Assembly (NCBI GenBank): GCA_021325375.1
Contig: JAJPHG010000007.1
Coordinates: 124,001-188,000 of the forward strand
Source of the DNA: Alphaproteobacteria bacterium
Lineage (GTDB): Bacteria; Pseudomonadota; Alphaproteobacteria; Micropepsales; Micropepsaceae
Direction of reading: 5' to 3'
Length of the DNA stretch: 64,000 bases
Shown here: positions 3,134-53,512 of the stretch, one piece after another
Position numbering within the stretch: position 1 is the first letter of the stretch
Layout: every line of letters begins with the position of its first letter
Notes under the pieces: generated by a model
Databases searched by the model: none
What the model was told of the DNA's origin: nothing
What the model saw: the letters and a program-made list of their open reading frames with translations, nothing else
Program-made: the position numbers and the translations under genes

Positions 3134-3143
3134 AATATCAACT

Positions 3144-3316
3144 CGTCATGGCCGCCCTTGAGGCGGCCACCCCTTGCGCCCGCATCCGCGGGCGCAAGGG
3201 GATTCACGCGAAGAACGCGGAGAAGAAAAAACTCCGCGCGCTCCGCGTCTGCGCGTGATTCACTTCGCTCGCTGACGCTCGCTGGCTGGATGGCCGCCTC
3301 AAGGACGGCCATGACG
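3144..3316 (+). repeat. Palindromic repeat unit, GTCATGGCC/ACGCGGAG hybrid
   Basis: Outer arms CGTCATGGCCGCCCTTGAGG and its near reverse complement face each other across about 120 bp. Inside are a small hairpin around CGCATCCGCGGGCGC and a second arm pair of ACGCGGAG/CTCCGCGT type. The outer arm matches the unit at 7245; the inner arm matches the units at 21935, 29166 and 53335. It lies 3' of the monooxygenase gene. Confidence 0.8.
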
Positions 3317-3380
3317 ACGTTGGAGGCCCTGTAAGAAATCCCCTTCTCGAACGACTACCATGTCCGAGGAGGCGTGAGGT

Positions 3381-7210: not shown

Positions 7211-7244
7211 GGCAGTTTTCGATCCGACGGAATCGCTCCCCCGT

Positions 7245-7372
7245 CGTCATGGCCGCCCTTGTGGCGGCCATCCATATTCCCTGGTCTCGCAGTGCGTGTA
7301 TGGATGGCCGGGACGTGAAGCATGTCCTCGGGCCGCGCCTTCGGCGCGGTCCCGGGGGCCCGGCCATGACGG
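7245..7372 (+). repeat. Palindromic repeat unit, GTCATGGCC family
   Basis: Left arm GTCATGGCCGCCCTTGTGGC and right arm GGGCCCGGCCATGAC face each other. Inner hairpins are GGATGGCC-type and a GGCCGCGCC/GGCGCGGTCC stem. It lies 3' of the barrel gene. The same outer arm occurs at 3144. Confidence 0.75.
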
Positions 7373-8668: not shown

Positions 8669-8673
8669 AGTCA

Positions 8674-12873: not shown

Positions 12874-14364
12874 ATGACGAGGCTCGGTTCGGTCCTTGCG
12901 CTGTTGGCTCTGGCTCTGGCTTTGGCCGCTTCCGGTTCCGCCCCGGCGGCCAGCGTCACCACCTATCACAATTCGCTGCAGCGGCTGGGCGCGTACAAGA
13001 TCGAGCGGCTCACCCTCGCGGCGGCGGCGGGCGTGCATCGCGACACGGGCTTCAACGCGAGCATCAGCGGCAACGTCTATGCGCAGCCGCTCTATTGGCA
13101 GCCCGAAGGCGCCAAGATCGGGCTGATCATCGTCGCCACGGAATCCAACAGCGTCTATGCGCTCAACGAAGCGACCGGCGCGATCGTTTGGCAGAACCAA
13201 CTCGCGGCGTCGGTGCCGCTCGCCCAGCTTCCCTGCGGCAACATCGATCCCATGGGCATCACGGGAACGCCGGTGATCGATCCTGCGACAGCGACGCTTT
13301 ATCTCAACGCGCTGACGGCGACGGGGGGCGGCCCGCGGCACATGCTTTATGCGCTCTCGCTCGCCGACGGCTCGGTGCTGCCCAATTGGCCGATCGACAT
13401 GCAGGCGGCGCTGACGGGGCTGGGCGCGAGCTTCGACTCTGCGCATCAGGGCTCGCGCAGCGCGCTGCTGTTCTTCCAGGGCAGGCTCTACGCGACCTAT
13501 GGCGGCAACGCCGGCGATTGCCAGCCCTATCACGGCACGGTCGCGCAGGTGGCGCCCGCCACGGCGACGGTGGAGGCCTATTGGCAGACGCGCGGCGCGC
13601 GCGGCGGCATCTGGGCGCAAGGCGGCATCGCGGGCGACGGGCAGGACCTCTTCGTCACGACGGGCAACACGTCGGGCACGACCGACTGGGCCGACGGCGA
13701 GGCAATCGTGCGGCTGGTGCCGGGGCTGGCGCATTCGACGAAGCCGCGCGACAATTTCGTGCCCGCGAACTGGCAGGATCTCGACGCGAGCGACAAGGAC
13801 CTGGGCGGCACCGAGGCGCTGCCGTTCGACATCAAGTCTTCCGGCGGCACGGTGGCGCAGCGCGTGATCGCGTTCGGCAAGGACGGCAACGCCTATCTCG
13901 CCGACCGGCATTATCTGGGCGGCATCGGCGGCGCGCTCGCGGTGGCGCCGGTGTCCTCCGGCGCGATCCGCACCGCGCCCGCGATCTATCACATGGACGG
14001 CTCGATCAAAGTCGCGTTCACCAGCCGCGGCAGCACGCAATGCAGGGGCAGCAACCTCACCATGCTCAATGTCGCCGCAAGCGGTGTGTCGCCGATCACC
14101 TTCGCCTGGTGCGTGGCGCTGAACGGGCAGGGCGCGCCGATCATCACCACGACCGACGGCATAGCGAACCCGATCGCGTGGGCGGCGGGCGCGGAGGGCG
14201 ACAACCTCCTGCACGGCTTCGACGCGATGACGGGCGCGTCCGTGTTCACCGACACGGCGCCCGCGATGACGGGGCTGCATCACTTCGCGACGATCCTGGC
14301 GACGCAGCGCCGCTTCTATATCGCCGCCGACAACACGGTGTACGCCTATGCGTTCGCGCCGTAG
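12874..14364 (+). CDS. Secreted PQQ-type beta-propeller protein, copy 1
   Basis: Protein of 496 residues with a signal peptide (1-26, APAAS). It has propeller-blade motifs of the PQQ/WD-like kind (VYALNEATGAIVWQNQL, HMLYALSLADGSVL, LLHGFDAMTGASVFTD). Four cysteines (in LPCGNIDPMG, GDCQPYHG, TQCRGSN and AWCVALNG) are conserved in the downstream copy and could form two disulfides. The start was chosen behind GGAGG with 8-base spacing; longer frames are unsupported. It lacks the full dehydrogenase active site known from methanol dehydrogenases, so an enzymatic role is unproven. Tandem paralogue of the next gene. Confidence 0.75.
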   Translation: MTRLGSVLALLALALALAASGSAPAASVTTYHNSLQRLGAYKIERLTLAAAAGVHRDTGFNASISGNVYAQPLYWQPEGAKIGLIIVATESNSVYALNEATGAIVWQNQLAASVPLAQLPCGNIDPMGITGTPVIDPATATLYLNALTATGGGPRHMLYALSLADGSVLPNWPIDMQAALTGLGASFDSAHQGSRSALLFFQGRLYATYGGNAGDCQPYHGTVAQVAPATATVEAYWQTRGARGGIWAQGGIAGDGQDLFVTTGNTSGTTDWADGEAIVRLVPGLAHSTKPRDNFVPANWQDLDASDKDLGGTEALPFDIKSSGGTVAQRVIAFGKDGNAYLADRHYLGGIGGALAVAPVSSGAIRTAPAIYHMDGSIKVAFTSRGSTQCRGSNLTMLNVAASGVSPITFAWCVALNGQGAPIITTTDGIANPIAWAAGAEGDNLLHGFDAMTGASVFTDTAPAMTGLHHFATILATQRRFYIAADNTVYAYAFAP

Positions 14365-14432
14365 CAGTTGGGATTTCATGTCGTCCGATTTCCCTCTAGA
14401 CTGACCACGCTGTCGGAAAAATGGAGAGTGCG

Positions 14433-15881
14433 ATGAAAACCCGCTTCCTGATCGCGGCGATGCTGCTTGCGGTGCCCGCGCATGCCGACAGCGTGACGAC
14501 CTATCACAATTCCAACCAGCGCGACGGCGCCTATGTGATCCCGAGCCTGACGCTGGCGGCCGCGGGCAGCGTCGCCCCCGACACCAGGTTCAACGCCACG
14601 ATCAGCGGCCATGTCTACGCCCAGCCGCTGTTCTGGAAGCCCAAAAGCGCCAAGCGCGGCCTCGTCGTCGTCGCCACCGAATCCAACAACGTCTATGCGC
14701 TCGACGAGGCGAACGGCAAGGTCATGTGGCAGAACCTCATCGGCAACGCGATGCCGCTGAACCAGCTTCCCTGCGGCAACATCGATCCCATGGGCATCAC
14801 CGGCACGCCGGTGATCGATCCCGCCACGGGCACGCTCTATTTCGACGCGATGACGAAGACGAGCAACGGCGCGCGCCACATGGTGCACGCGCTCTCCCTC
14901 GCCGACGGCTCGGAGCTTTCCGGCTGGCCGATCGACATGCAGGCTGCGATCGGCGGCGGCTGGGATTCCTCGGTGCAGGGCGAGCGCAGCGGGCTGCTCT
15001 TCTTCAAGGGCGCGCTCTACGTCGTCTATGGCGGGCATTTCGGCGATTGCGGCTCCTATCGCGGCACGGTCGCGCAGATCGATCCGGCGACGCACGCGGT
15101 CACGGCCAACTGGCAGACGCGCGCGACGGGCGGCGGCATCTGGGCGCAAGGCGGCATCGCGGGCGACGGCGCCTCGCTCTTCGTCACCACCGGCAACACT
15201 TTCGGCACCAGCACCTGGAAGGACGGCGAGGCGATCATCCGGCTGAAACCCGGCCTTGTGCATTCCACCGACACACACGATTTCTTCACGCCGACGAACT
15301 GGCACGACCTCGACAACAGCGACGCGGATCTGGGCGGCACCGAGGCGCTGCCGATCGACATCAAGGTGCCGGGCAAGTCCAAGCGCGTCATCGCCTTCGG
15401 CAAGGACGGCAACGCCTATCTCGCCGACCGGGGCAATCTCGGCGGCATCGGCGGCCAGATCCAGGTGTTCGCCGCCTCGAGCAGCGGCATCCGCACCGCG
15501 CCCGCCGTCTACGAGACCGCGTCGGGCACGATGGTCGCGTTCCAGAGCAATGGCGGCGGTTCCTGCCACGGCGGCAACATCACGATGCTGAGCGTGGCGG
15601 CAAGCGGTTCCAATCCGATGTCGGTCGCGTGGTGCGCGGCGCTGAACGGCGGCGGCGCGCCGATCGTCACCACCACCGACGGCACCAACAATGCGCTTGT
15701 CTGGGCCGTGGGCGCGGAGGGCGACAACGAGCTGCACGCCTTCAACGCGCTGACCGGCGCGGTGGTGTTCGCAGGCACCGGCACGGGCATGAGCGGGCTG
15801 CACCACTACCAGACGATCCTGGCGACGGGGAAGCGCTTCTACGTCGGCGCCGACAACACGGTGTACGCGTTCAAGTTTTAG
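14433..15881 (+). CDS. Secreted PQQ-type beta-propeller protein, copy 2
   Basis: Protein of 482 residues: signal peptide (1-18, VPAHA-DS), then the same fold as the gene 69 bp upstream, with long identical stretches such as LPCGNIDPMGITGTPVIDPA and GGIWAQGGIAGDG. All four conserved cysteines are kept. The start at 14433 follows GGAGAG. The pair clearly arose by tandem duplication, and high identity over the whole length suggests related but perhaps diverged ligands. Function unknown; extracytoplasmic. Confidence 0.75.
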   Translation: MKTRFLIAAMLLAVPAHADSVTTYHNSNQRDGAYVIPSLTLAAAGSVAPDTRFNATISGHVYAQPLFWKPKSAKRGLVVVATESNNVYALDEANGKVMWQNLIGNAMPLNQLPCGNIDPMGITGTPVIDPATGTLYFDAMTKTSNGARHMVHALSLADGSELSGWPIDMQAAIGGGWDSSVQGERSGLLFFKGALYVVYGGHFGDCGSYRGTVAQIDPATHAVTANWQTRATGGGIWAQGGIAGDGASLFVTTGNTFGTSTWKDGEAIIRLKPGLVHSTDTHDFFTPTNWHDLDNSDADLGGTEALPIDIKVPGKSKRVIAFGKDGNAYLADRGNLGGIGGQIQVFAASSSGIRTAPAVYETASGTMVAFQSNGGGSCHGGNITMLSVAASGSNPMSVAWCAALNGGGAPIVTTTDGTNNALVWAVGAEGDNELHAFNALTGAVVFAGTGTGMSGLHHYQTILATGKRFYVGADNTVYAFKF

Positions 15882-21934: not shown

Positions 21935-22135
21935 TGTCATGGCCCGCGAATGCGGGCCACCCAGCTGGGTTCTACGCGCTGTGGAAGGTTCTCACGCGGA
22001 GACGCGGAGGCCGCGGAGTCGAGTTCATCCTCCGCGATCTCAGCGATCTCCGCGTCTCCGCGTGATCCTTTTTGCGAAAGCAGGCAGATGTCATCTGGGT
22101 GGCCCGCATTTGCGGGCCATGACATCAAAATTTTC
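21935..22135 (+). repeat. Palindromic repeat unit, GTCATGGCCCGC/ACGCGGAG family
   Basis: Outer arms TGTCATGGCCCGCG...GCGGGCCACCCAG and CTGGGTGGCCCGC...GCGGGCCATGACA. Inner arms ACGCGGAGACGCGGAG and CTCCGCGTCTCCGCGT enclose a short loop. It lies between the convergent ends of the DUF1254 and bpt genes. Near-identical units occur at 29166 and 53335. Confidence 0.9.
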
Positions 22136-29165: not shown

Positions 29166-29345
29166 TGTCATGGCCCGCGAATGCGGGCCACCCAGGTGAC
29201 GCTTCTGCATTCTCACAAAAGAATCACGCGGAGACGCGGAGGTCACGGAGGTTGAGCTCGACTCCGCGACCTCCGCGTCTCCGCGTGAGTCCTTTCTACA
29301 GTGCGCAAAACCCACCTGGGTGGCCCGCATTCGCGGGCCATGACA
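29166..29345 (+). repeat. Palindromic repeat unit, GTCATGGCCCGC/ACGCGGAG family
   Basis: Same modules as at 21935: outer TGTCATGGCCCGCG.../...GCGGGCCATGACA and inner ACGCGGAGACGCGGAG/CTCCGCGTCTCCGCGT arms. It lies downstream of the pstS terminator. Confidence 0.9.
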
Positions 29346-45899: not shown

Positions 45900-46358
45900 A
45901 TGCGCTGCCCCTTTTGCGGACACGACGACACCCAGGTCAAGGACAGCCGTCCGTCCGAGGACAATTCCGCCATCCGCCGCCGTAGGCACTGCCTGGAATG
46001 CGGCGGCCGGTTCACGACCTTCGAGCGCGTGCAGCTGCGCGAGCTCGTGGTGCTCAAGAAGAACAGCCGCCGCGAGCCCTTCGACCGCGACAAGCTCGAG
46101 CGCAGCCTCGCGCACGCGCTGCGCAAGCGTCCCGTCGAGGCCGAGCGCGTCGACCGCATGGTGACCGGCATCGTGCGCCGGCTGGAAAGCCTGGGGGAGA
46201 ACGAGATCCCTGCCTCCACCATCGGCGAGCTGGTGATGCAGGCGCTGTCGAGCCTCGACAAGGTCGCTTACGTGCGCTTCGCGTCGGTCTACAAGAACTT
46301 CCGCGAGACCAAGGATTTCGAGAACCTGATCGGCGAGCTGGAAGGGGACAAGGATTAG
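45900..46358 (+). CDS. nrdR: Transcriptional repressor NrdR
   Basis: Protein of 152 residues: N-terminal zinc ribbon with Cys3, Cys6, Cys31 and Cys34 ([10 protein letters not shown]...[12 protein letters not shown]), then an ATP-cone domain ([22 protein letters not shown] ... [13 protein letters not shown]). NrdR senses (d)ATP and represses ribonucleotide reductase genes. It lies 15 bp after glyA. In related genomes ribD usually follows at once; here a GxxExxY gene flanked by repeat arms is interposed. Confidence 0.96.
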
Positions 46359-46360
46359 GT

Positions 46361-46809
46361 TTCACGCGGAGACGCGGAGGTCGCGGAGTGGCGGATTCGG
46401 GCCGCGCATTGGACGATGTGACAGGCGAGATCGTTGATGCAGCGCTCAAGCTGCATAGCGCGCTTGGTCCTGGATTGCTCGAGTCCGTTTACGAAATCGT
46501 GCTCTGTCGCGATTTGCAGCGGCGTGGATTGTCCGTAGAACGGCAAAAGGCGGTACCATTTGAGTATGATGGGCTACGGTTTGACGAGGGGTTGCGCATC
46601 GACCTCTTAGTCGATGCGCGAGTTGTTGTTGAGATCAAATCGGTCGAAAAGCACGCCATCGTGCACGCGAAGCAAGTGCTGACTTATCTACGTCTTTTGA
46701 AGCTGCCCGTAGGCTTGCTGATAAATTTCGGTGCGCCGACATTGAAGGAAGGCTTGCAGCGGATCGTAAACGGCTTGCCCAACTCCGCGTCTCCGCGTCT
46801 CCGCGTGAA
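46361..46809 (+). mobile_element. Putative GxxExxY-nuclease element bounded by ACGCGGAG arms
   Basis: The left arm (46361-46387, TTCACGCGGAGACGCGGAGG...) and right arm (46783-46809, CTCCGCGTCTCCGCGTCTCC...) are inverted copies of the inner arms found in the non-coding units at 21935, 29166 and 53335. Here they enclose the nuclease gene instead of a 10-30 bp loop. No target-site duplication was verified. Treating it as a mobile unit is an inference. Confidence 0.45.
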
Positions 46810-46861
46810 CCAACGCAGCAACGGTCAGGCTCCTCTCTCGACAAGGGAGACGAAAGAATGA
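46388..46861 (+). CDS. GxxExxY protein, PD-(D/E)XK nuclease superfamily
   Basis: Protein of 157 residues. The name-giving motif is G29-L-L-E32-S-V-Y35, followed by a PD-(D/E)XK-type core: D72 in RIDLLVD, E82-I-K84 in VVVEIKSVE and Q96 in HAKQVLTYLRLL. Function in the family is unknown; nuclease activity is predicted from the fold. The GTG start and its GGAG ribosome-binding site lie in the left repeat arm, and residues about 132-141 (NSASPRLRVN) are encoded by the right arm. The reading frame then runs on to overlap the ribD ATG by 4 bases. It interrupts the usual nrdR-ribD neighbourhood. Confidence 0.8.
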   Translation: MADSGRALDDVTGEIVDAALKLHSALGPGLLESVYEIVLCRDLQRRGLSVERQKAVPFEYDGLRFDEGLRIDLLVDARVVVEIKSVEKHAIVHAKQVLTYLRLLKLPVGLLINFGAPTLKEGLQRIVNGLPNSASPRLRVNQRSNGQAPLSTRETKE

Positions 46862-47931
46862 CCGACCTCCTCCACATGCGTCATGCGCTTGCGCTCGCGG
46901 GACGGGCGCTGGGCACGACCGCGCCCAATCCCGCCGTCGGCTGCGTGATCGTGAAGGACGAGCGCGTCGTCGGACGCGGGTGGACACAGGTCGGCGGGCG
47001 GCCGCATGCGGAGACGATAGCGCTGGCACAGGCGGGCGAGGCGGCGCGGGGCGCGACGGCTTACGTGACGCTGGAACCTTGCGCGCATCAGGGCCAGACG
47101 CCGCCTTGCGCGAATGCGCTGATCCAAGCCGGCATCGCGCGCGTGGTCGTGGCCGTGGAGGATCCCGATCCGCGCGTCTGCGGCAAAGGCATCGCCATGC
47201 TCTGGGATGCCGACATCGAGGTCGCGAGCGGCGTGCTGGAGCACGAGGCGGCACTCATCAACCAGGGCTTCTTCCTGCGCGTGAAGGAAGAGCGTCCCCT
47301 CGTCACGCTCAAGATCGCCGCGAGCCTCGACGGCAAGACCGCGACCGTCTCGGGCCAGAGCAAATGGATCACCGGGCCTGAGGCGCGGCGGCACGGCCAT
47401 TTGCTGCGCGCCCGGCACGACGCGATCCTTGTGGGCGTCGAGACCGCGCTCGCCGACGATCCGGAGCTCACCTGCCGCATCGCGGGTCTGGAAGACCGCT
47501 CGCCGCTGCGCATCGTGCTCGACACGCGGCTCAGGCTGCCCGAGACCTCCAAGCTCGTGAAGACGGCCAAGCAGATCCCCACCCTCGTGTTCACAGCCAT
47601 CGACGGGCGGCTGGGCGATGCCGAGGTCGTGCGCGTCGCGCGCGACGCCCGCGGACGGCCGGACGTGGGCGCGGTGCTGAAGGCGCTTGCCCGGCGCGGC
47701 ATCACGCGGCTCCTGGTCGAAGGCGGGGCGAGCGTGCATGCGGCGTTCCTGGACCGGGGCCTCGCCGACCGGCTGGAGGTCTTTCGCGCGCCCCTGGTCC
47801 TGGGCGCGTCGGGAAAGAGCGCGGTGGACGCCCTGGCGGCCTTCGATCTTGACGAAGCGTCCCGCTTCGTTTCGCTGGGCAGGCGCGCGCTCGGCGCCGA
47901 TCTTCTGGAATCCTTCGCGGCCAAAGCCTAA
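46858..47931 (+). CDS. ribD: Bifunctional diaminohydroxyphosphoribosylaminopyrimidine deaminase / reductase
   Basis: Protein of 357 residues. The N-terminal deaminase domain (1-145) has the zinc motif HAETIAL and PCAHQGQTPPC. The C-terminal reductase domain begins near 148 (RPLVTLKIAASLDGKTA, SKWITGPEARRHGHLLRARHDAILVG, LLVEGGASVHAAFL). It performs the second and third steps of riboflavin synthesis. The ATG overlaps the GxxExxY stop, but an AAGGGAGACGAAAGA leader sits just upstream, so it can be translated independently. No FMN riboswitch is visible. Confidence 0.95.
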   Translation: MTDLLHMRHALALAGRALGTTAPNPAVGCVIVKDERVVGRGWTQVGGRPHAETIALAQAGEAARGATAYVTLEPCAHQGQTPPCANALIQAGIARVVVAVEDPDPRVCGKGIAMLWDADIEVASGVLEHEAALINQGFFLRVKEERPLVTLKIAASLDGKTATVSGQSKWITGPEARRHGHLLRARHDAILVGVETALADDPELTCRIAGLEDRSPLRIVLDTRLRLPETSKLVKTAKQIPTLVFTAIDGRLGDAEVVRVARDARGRPDVGAVLKALARRGITRLLVEGGASVHAAFLDRGLADRLEVFRAPLVLGASGKSAVDALAAFDLDEASRFVSLGRRALGADLLESFAAKA

Positions 47932-53334: not shown

Positions 53335-53512
53335 TGTCATGGCCCGCGACTGCGGGCCACCCAGCTAGGGTCTGCACATTCCGGCAATGTTCACGCGGAG
53401 ACGCGGAGTTCGCGGAGGTTCTTTGCTTCTCCGCGCACTCCGCGTCTCCGCGTGCAATTCTTCGAGACCGGAGCGAAGTCACCTGGGTGGCCCGCAGTCG
53501 CGGGCCATGACA
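53335..53512 (+). repeat. Palindromic repeat unit, GTCATGGCCCGC/ACGCGGAG family
   Basis: Outer arms TGTCATGGCCCGCGACTG and CGCGGGCCATGACA, inner ACGCGGAGACGCGGAG and CTCCGCGTCTCCGCGT. It lies between two convergent genes. Third full copy of the family. Confidence 0.9.

Follow-up and report, generated by a model that had tools for sequence, protein, structure and literature searches.

A GxxExxY nuclease gene and its matching inverted arms: a candidate RAYT/REP-like element

The stretch of DNA analysed here (the window) comprises 64,000 nt, positions 124,001 to 188,000 of the forward strand of contig JAJPHG010000007.1 (GCA_021325375.1), from an Alphaproteobacteria bacterium (Micropepsales; Micropepsaceae). 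Within it, a gene encoding a GxxExxY protein is bracketed by inverted arms, each built of three 7-nt units (TTTCACGCGGAGACGCGGAGGTCGCGGAG and its near-complement), in the following layout:

45900 to 46358, plus strand: nrdR (TIGR00244), upstream neighbour, context outside the element
46361 to 46388, plus strand: left arm, three CGCGGAG units, beginning 2 nt past the nrdR stop codon
46388 to 46861, plus strand: gene for a GxxExxY / PDDEXK_3 predicted nuclease, 157 aa, GTG start, profile matches
46783 to 46811, plus strand: right arm, reverse complement of the left arm, coding for residues 133-142
46858 to 47931, plus strand: ribD (TIGR00326), downstream neighbour, context outside the element

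A first-pass annotation of this locus had described the gene as embedded in hairpin arms, and inverted three-unit arms can indeed be read on both sides of it. The same annotation proposed that the gene borrows its start signals and part of its C-terminus from the arms. Much of this stands: the left arm shares one base with the GTG start, and the right arm encodes residues 133-142 (SASPRLRVNQ), which fall within a low-confidence C-terminal tail. The Shine-Dalgarno sequence needed correction. It is likely the GGAG of the second left-arm unit (46376-46379, 8 nt upstream of the start), preferred because the GGAG abutting the GTG is too close to serve; the latter was rejected on spacing. A single GxxExxY gene was found in the genome of the window by protein and profile searches. 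The proposal that it splits a normally adjacent nrdR-ribD pair holds for part of the relatives: in 14 of 29 relatives' loci a ribD-like start (motif MRHA, recognised by eye) lies less than 200 nt from the nrdR stop with no arms in view, the other loci having a different next gene or one beyond view. One relative (G042) carries after nrdR an outer palindrome of the type seen in the window, standing without arms. Neither a clean empty site nor a target duplication was readable among the nrdR-ribD relatives, because they are too distant.

The arm sequence is not confined to the gene. With up to 2 mismatches allowed, the window contains the 16-nt arm core ACGCGGAGACGCGGAG 10 times, for an expectation of 0.31, and none of 100 shuffled windows reaches 10 matches. 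Exact matches number 131 in the whole genome (67 + 64, overlaps counted), and the reversed pattern gives none (0 + 0). Four of the dispersed copies within the window form hairpins inside palindromes:

3195 to 3275, minus strand: degraded arm hairpin inside another palindrome (3143-3194 with 3266-3317), weak fold (z -2.4)
21992 to 22065, unstranded: non-coding arm hairpin inside an outer palindrome (21935-21980 with 22079-22124), fold z -6.7
29224 to 29288, unstranded: non-coding arm hairpin inside an outer palindrome (29166-29198 with 29313-29345), fold z -9.9
53391 to 53454, unstranded: non-coding arm hairpin inside an outer palindrome (53335 to 53512), fold z -9.6

The claim that arms at 21935, 29166 and 53335 enclose just a short loop inside a larger palindrome is thus well founded, with strong folds (z -6.7 to -9.9), provided that those three positions are read as the starts of the outer palindromes and not of the arms. 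A search of the window against Rfam at gathering score returned nothing but a tRNA.

The protein itself matches TIGR04256 GxxExxY (E 2.3e-38, 131.1 bits against a cut-off of 35) and PF13366 PDDEXK_3 (E 8e-38), the profile matches spanning residues 10-127 of 157. These were its sole NCBIfam and Pfam matches at E 0.001, and no HUH / Y1 transposase domain was found in it. H23, E32, Y35, D72, E82, K84 and Y100 do not vary across 34 sequences and Q96 hardly does, an H, D, ExK and QxxxY set that we take to resemble the motif set of RecB-like nucleases. The AF2 model (pLDDT 84.9, residues 131-157 below 50) looks like a PD-(D/E)XK fold. The best VIA-align matches listed include SSO0001 (4ic1, Z 9.1), 3ijm (Z 8.4) and the Hjc resolvase 1gef (Z 6.3), to be read with the tool's warning that Z 7-8 is common by chance; the top rows are nucleases or nuclease-like folds, restriction-type proteins among them. 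Foldseek alone gave no match to the model at E 0.001, a sequence search of solved structures gave one row at E 0.45, and the PADLOC profiles of anti-phage defence families gave only weak matches, to Cas4 (E 0.0024-0.027) and to RT-associated PDDEXK proteins, all at E 0.0024 or worse. The proposed activity depends on a nuclease fold, and both the modelled fold and the active-site residues D72, E82 and K84 were found. By these two features, the window protein can be assigned to the PD-(D/E)XK superfamily as a predicted nuclease.

The arrangement of the gene within matching arms is confirmed and extends far beyond the window. One scan of GTDB genomes provided a locus set, mostly from metagenome bins, made of the best 80 of at least 571 confirmed relatives; titles among these 80 include Planctomycetota, Verrucomicrobiota, Gemmatimonadota, Chloroflexota, Cyanobacteriota, Pseudomonadota and others. 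Two loci were excluded for short flanks. Inverted arms around the gene (score of at least 16) were found in 60 of the 78 usable loci; positional controls of identical layout, moved by 700-1000 nt, gave 3 of 289. The other 18 loci show no clear arms. Had relatives' genes consistently lacked flanking arms, the system proposed for the window would have lost its footing, and the opposite is seen. When the left flank of one locus was paired with the right flank of another, 174 of 780 combinations still reached a score of 16, because arms follow a common plan; true pairs had a median score of 22.5, mispaired ones of 10.5. A second sample gave 19 of 24 parsed loci with a score of at least 14, some with other units (six of its 30 loci were unparsed).

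The usual unit is C-R-C-N-R-A-G, spaced every 8 to 10 nt. Unit dialects (CGCGGAG, CGCAGAG, CGCAAAG, CGCGAAG, CACGAAG, CACAAAG and more) vary between loci and are largely common to both arms, as read from 147 parsed loci, of which 118 were labelled. Among 57 loci with clear arms and long flanks, 49 have an upstream same-strand ORF near the left arm by a rough ORF count, the stop codon lying at a median of 7 nt from the arm. A phage collection contained no GxxExxY relative at E 1e-5, and seven plasmid records do contain one.

Variation in the units allowed arms and proteins to be compared position by position. The covariation set holds 107 non-redundant loci, in 101 of which base 5 of the unit is clear (G or A) and in 6 mixed; three broken genes (L039, L160, L226) and 8 near-identical rows were excluded, and L209 was unparsed in the code set. 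When base 5 was compared with every protein column over the 101 loci, four residues stood out, D9, T12, G13 and V108, with mutual information z of 21-32, the next column reaching 7.0. Relatedness alone should have raised other columns too, because all columns share one tree. At residue 9, D occurs with G 49:1 and E with A 25:1, N being mixed (14:9); at residue 108, V occurs with G 57:1 and L with A 31:7. Base 4 tracks residue 123 in a similar manner (L with G 30:2, I with A 24:3). Residues 9, 12, 13 and 108 taken together form 34 types with zero conflicts; 23 of these types are single loci, so the weight is carried by the 11 types that hold 78 loci. In the window the arms encode none of these covarying residues, residue 9 lying about 23 nt past the left arm and residue 108 in mid-gene.

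The correspondence was also followed along the best tree, on 14 path-disjoint pairs. Changes at residue 13 went in the same direction in 12 pairs and in the opposite direction in 0, with 2 ties, followed by residues 12 (11:0), 108 (8:0) and 9 (7:0), for a median column of net 0; among the other columns, residue 119 also reached 7:0 and residue 59 reached 10:2. Supported branches alone leave at most 5 pairs, at which the tree test is without power. With predictors restricted to proteins less than 50% identical, residues 12 and 13 gave base 5 correctly in 43 of the 45 loci having such a match, against 58 of 101 for the most similar remaining protein; at less than 60% identity the figures were 83 of 87 for the two residues and 51 of 101 for overall similarity. 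A base-5 rule fixed in advance of fetching gave the correct base in 9 of the 11 held-out loci that could be scored and failed in two, these loci being mostly from one divergent family (38 gene places were fetched, of which 22 could be parsed). Within the window, all 9 matches to the generic arm pattern read CGCGGAG, the dialect predicted from the residues of the gene. That the GxxExxY nuclease and its own arms are matched is supported by the covariation of residues with unit bases.

A fixed site beside fabG gives a view of how such elements come and go. In Sphingomonas albertensis (L098) the element is placed after the stop codon of one gene, with fabG (TIGR01830, above cut-off) on its other side, and the GxxExxY gene occupies this place in 24 genomes, in several dialects, one copy (G523) being frameshifted. 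The arms cover both base-5 classes, and residues agree with arms in 21 of 21 scorable cases, these loci being within the discovery set. Flank identity reaches 94.9%, and that of the genes is mostly around 70%. In the 14 pairs with flanks at least 90% identical, gene identity is 67-75% in 12 and 84% and 94% in the other two; over all 276 pairs, gene identity is below flank identity in 274 and the two identities correlate at 0.22 (in this comparison the gene segments for G484 and G490, both genes reading intact, were set 7 nt too long). The lower identity of the gene may reflect cassette replacement rather than substitution.

Sites without an intact element were read directly in 18 genomes, and fourteen more were deduced from alignment gaps of 6-46 nt. 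Some are short gaps, of 32-38 nt (G521, G480, G511, G504) or 44-45 nt (G469, G502), the alleles of 32-38 nt being too diverged to place exact boundaries; two more have no arms and measure 111 nt (G467) and 171 nt (G472). Decayed gene remnants are found in G497, G493 and G485, and about 1.3 kb with a long opposite-strand ORF and no arms in G475, G503 and G526. In four further genomes (G513, G499, G514, G509) the site is filled by unrelated palindromes or inverted repeats, because of which the spot may be a hotspot for hairpins. Cassettes of arms plus gene thus appear to have been exchanged, or repeatedly lost and gained, at this fixed position. Around the same site, 60-kb stretches from six genomes offered no informative second site for the presence or absence of non-coding hairpins.

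Equal abundance of arms in genomes lacking the gene would have spoken against a link between the two, and abundance is unequal in the three groups that were compared: arms are abundant with the gene and mostly rare without it. All three comparisons ignore kinship and include many incomplete genomes. In the genus of the window, where absence means that a single-protein search did not find the gene, the CGCGGAG pair pattern occurs in 12 of 12 genomes with the gene against 13 of 48 without (p 4e-6), and at least 8 arm matches in 11 of 12 against 8 of 48. In family f6, at least 8 generic arms occur in 9 of 11 genomes with a gene over the cut-off against 5 of 57 without. In the fabG set, where absence refers to that site and not to other genomic places, at least 15 arms (three dialects summed) occur in 22 of 24 genomes with the gene at the site against 1 of 32 without it, the one being the remnant-bearing G497. 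Two genomes were set apart: G405, with 8 arms and a weak gene match, and G486, with 54 arms and a site that falls at a contig end.

The exceptions run in both directions. G470, one of the two genomes of the fabG set that have the gene and fewer than 15 counted arms, has a unit outside the searched patterns, CGCGACG; G411, G447 and G523 have few arms despite the gene (4, 2 and 3), while the counts of G413 and G430 come close to the reversed control (46 against 32 and 8 against 7). Conversely, CGCGAAG hairpins, some with arms in the opposite order, are present in two genomes without a GxxExxY hit (G354, G454). In G461, G484 and G490 the dispersed arms are mostly CGCGGAG, while the gene read at the site has another dialect. 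A genome-wide match of dispersed arms to the dialect of the gene is accordingly unsupported in Sphingomonas, on these three genomes with one gene site each.

Non-coding palindromes nested within one another, with a different dialect in each layer, were read at nine loci (L237-L241, L305, L306, L308 and L310), and at another (L311) two arm pairs are interleaved. Such Russian-doll palindromes look as if hairpins insert inside hairpins. Cargo varies as well: at G007:C1:53900-55700 (L303), perfect arms (GGATTCACGCGGAGGCGCGGAG and its complement, cores at 311-325 and 1396-1410 of the locus) enclose an ORF for an Mrr restriction endonuclease, whose full translation matches Mrr_cat (E 6e-35) and Mrr_N (E 5e-29). 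GxxExxY was not found in that genome by a single-protein search. From its sequence, this locus is best described as an arm-bounded cassette with a different cargo.

The closest parallel is with RAYTs, tyrosine transposases related to IS200/IS605, whose genes are flanked by two inverted palindromic repeats (REPs), gene and repeats apparently coevolving; RAYTs were proposed to copy or exchange REPs (Nunvar et al. 2010, PMC2817692). With the RAYT/REP/REPIN systems, the GxxExxY loci share a nuclease gene between two inverted palindromic repeats, many dispersed copies, apparent gene-repeat coevolution, a gene diverging beyond its neighbours and a copy number that tracks gene presence. They differ in that GxxExxY is a PD-(D/E)XK protein and RAYT a tyrosine transposase, and in that the arms are rows of 7-nt units, occur in many phyla and bound whole cassettes that differ at a fixed site. 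Judged by sequence, the GxxExxY element would work like REP/RAYT yet is not a RAYT. With Cas4 and RecB-like exonucleases and with Hjc resolvases it shares the PD-(D/E)XK core (D72, E82-x-K84, QxxxY). Unlike any of these, the 157-aa protein sits inside its own arms; unlike Cas4, it has no iron-sulphur cluster motif, because it has one cysteine only, and no CRISPR gene is among its identified neighbours in the window. Homing endonucleases with a PD-(D/E)XK fold exist, and like them the GxxExxY gene can occupy one site repeatedly; unlike them, it apparently recognises the ends of its own element and not an empty host site. In the available parts of the literature on TIGR04256 GxxExxY / PF13366 neither function nor arms are described, and those on RAYTs, nested palindromes and nucleases with inverted repeats hold no account of a GxxExxY-arm system. 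Twelve arm strings searched in the literature were absent from any relevant paper, and the heptamer repeat in the available text of PMC4692102 differs from the arm units.

We consider it probable that gene and arms together make up a single genetic unit, a RAYT/REP-like element whose PD-(D/E)XK nuclease would recognise the 7-nt units of the arms. This supports in part what the first-pass annotation had proposed, a nuclease recognising or spreading its own hairpin, and the flanking arms, the dispersed copies, the covariation, the copy-number association and the nuclease fold all speak for it; its other half, the movement of arms and the derivation of the non-coding copies, is something we infer from these. 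Mobilisation of the arms by the GxxExxY nuclease could proceed as follows. The nuclease would act on the arm units, binding and cutting them, probably as hairpins or cruciforms, and repair or replication would then copy or exchange whatever stands between two arms. The non-coding hairpins would be non-autonomous copies maintained by the activity of the nuclease, some of them inside one another. By copying or exchanging arm-bounded DNA, the nuclease would therefore work like a RAYT with its REPs, through unrelated chemistry. The element would rarely harm its host, because it often stands in the short gap right after a stop codon. On a broader reading, to which we give an even chance, there is an undescribed class of hairpin elements, present in many phyla. 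Its autonomous form would encode a nuclease resembling RecB/Cas4 that reads its own arms through a legible residue-to-base code, and this nuclease would swap and nest arm-bounded cassettes (carrying GxxExxY, another gene such as Mrr, or nothing), which would make it a chemically different counterpart to REP/RAYT.

Several other accounts share parts of this evidence. A selfish nuclease of the homing type, cutting cassette-less alleles at particular intergenic sites and being copied in through recombination between flanks, would fit the 24 genomes with different cassettes at the fabG site, where flanks reach 94.9% identity and genes mostly stay near 70%, as well as the relatives that are empty there. 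Yet the residues track the element's own arms, not the host site, and the element is found in no fewer than two unrelated neighbourhoods, next to nrdR and ribD in the window and next to fabG in Sphingomonas; moreover, a homing enzyme is usually unable to cut an occupied allele. We regard this account as unlikely. Quite unlikely, too, is that the arms are an operator bound by the protein to control its own synthesis, the dispersed hairpins being an unrelated repeat or decoys. The left arm does overlap the start signal in the window, and a residue-base correspondence requires binding alone and no mobility, but a second, inverted copy after the gene would be needless for an operator, which would also leave unexplained why copies running from dozens to hundreds track the gene and why cassettes differ at a fixed site.

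It is improbable that the nuclease gene is a mere passenger, one of several cargoes of palindromic repeats spread by other means. The Mrr gene enclosed by arms in G007, where GxxExxY was not found, and the nesting of hairpins in one another would suit such repeats. Of a passenger, however, one would expect neither a residue-base correspondence with the arms nor a copy number tied so strongly to the presence of the gene. Template switching occurs at quasi-palindromes, and replication errors that copy one arm onto the other with no protein involved would account for arms, and likewise short non-coding hairpins, that agree inside one locus and vary from locus to locus. They would not account for arms some 400 nt apart, for the residue-base correspondence or for the link to gene presence, and we find this explanation very hard to credit. 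The self-recognising, arm-bounded nuclease element would give a probable role to a widespread protein family annotated by motif alone, and would probably account for a class of intergenic hairpins found in many phyla. The claim is open to direct test through the covarying residues, since a few substitutions should switch arm preference. If arm-bounded cassettes are indeed moved by the nuclease, the task proposed for RAYTs would have a second solution with unrelated chemistry, and restriction genes a route by which to travel.

Repeats of other kinds are also present in the window. A second palindrome family (ACCCTCCCCTTGAGGGAGGGT and relatives) is dispersed at 8671, 15882, 24461, 41299, 43621 and 52608. 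A third palindrome type (GTCATGGCCGCC) is found at 3143-3317 and 7236-7274, one case enclosing the degraded arm hairpin listed above. Finally, two diverged tandem copies of about 1.5 kb lie at 12938-15833, with pieces 71-79% identical.
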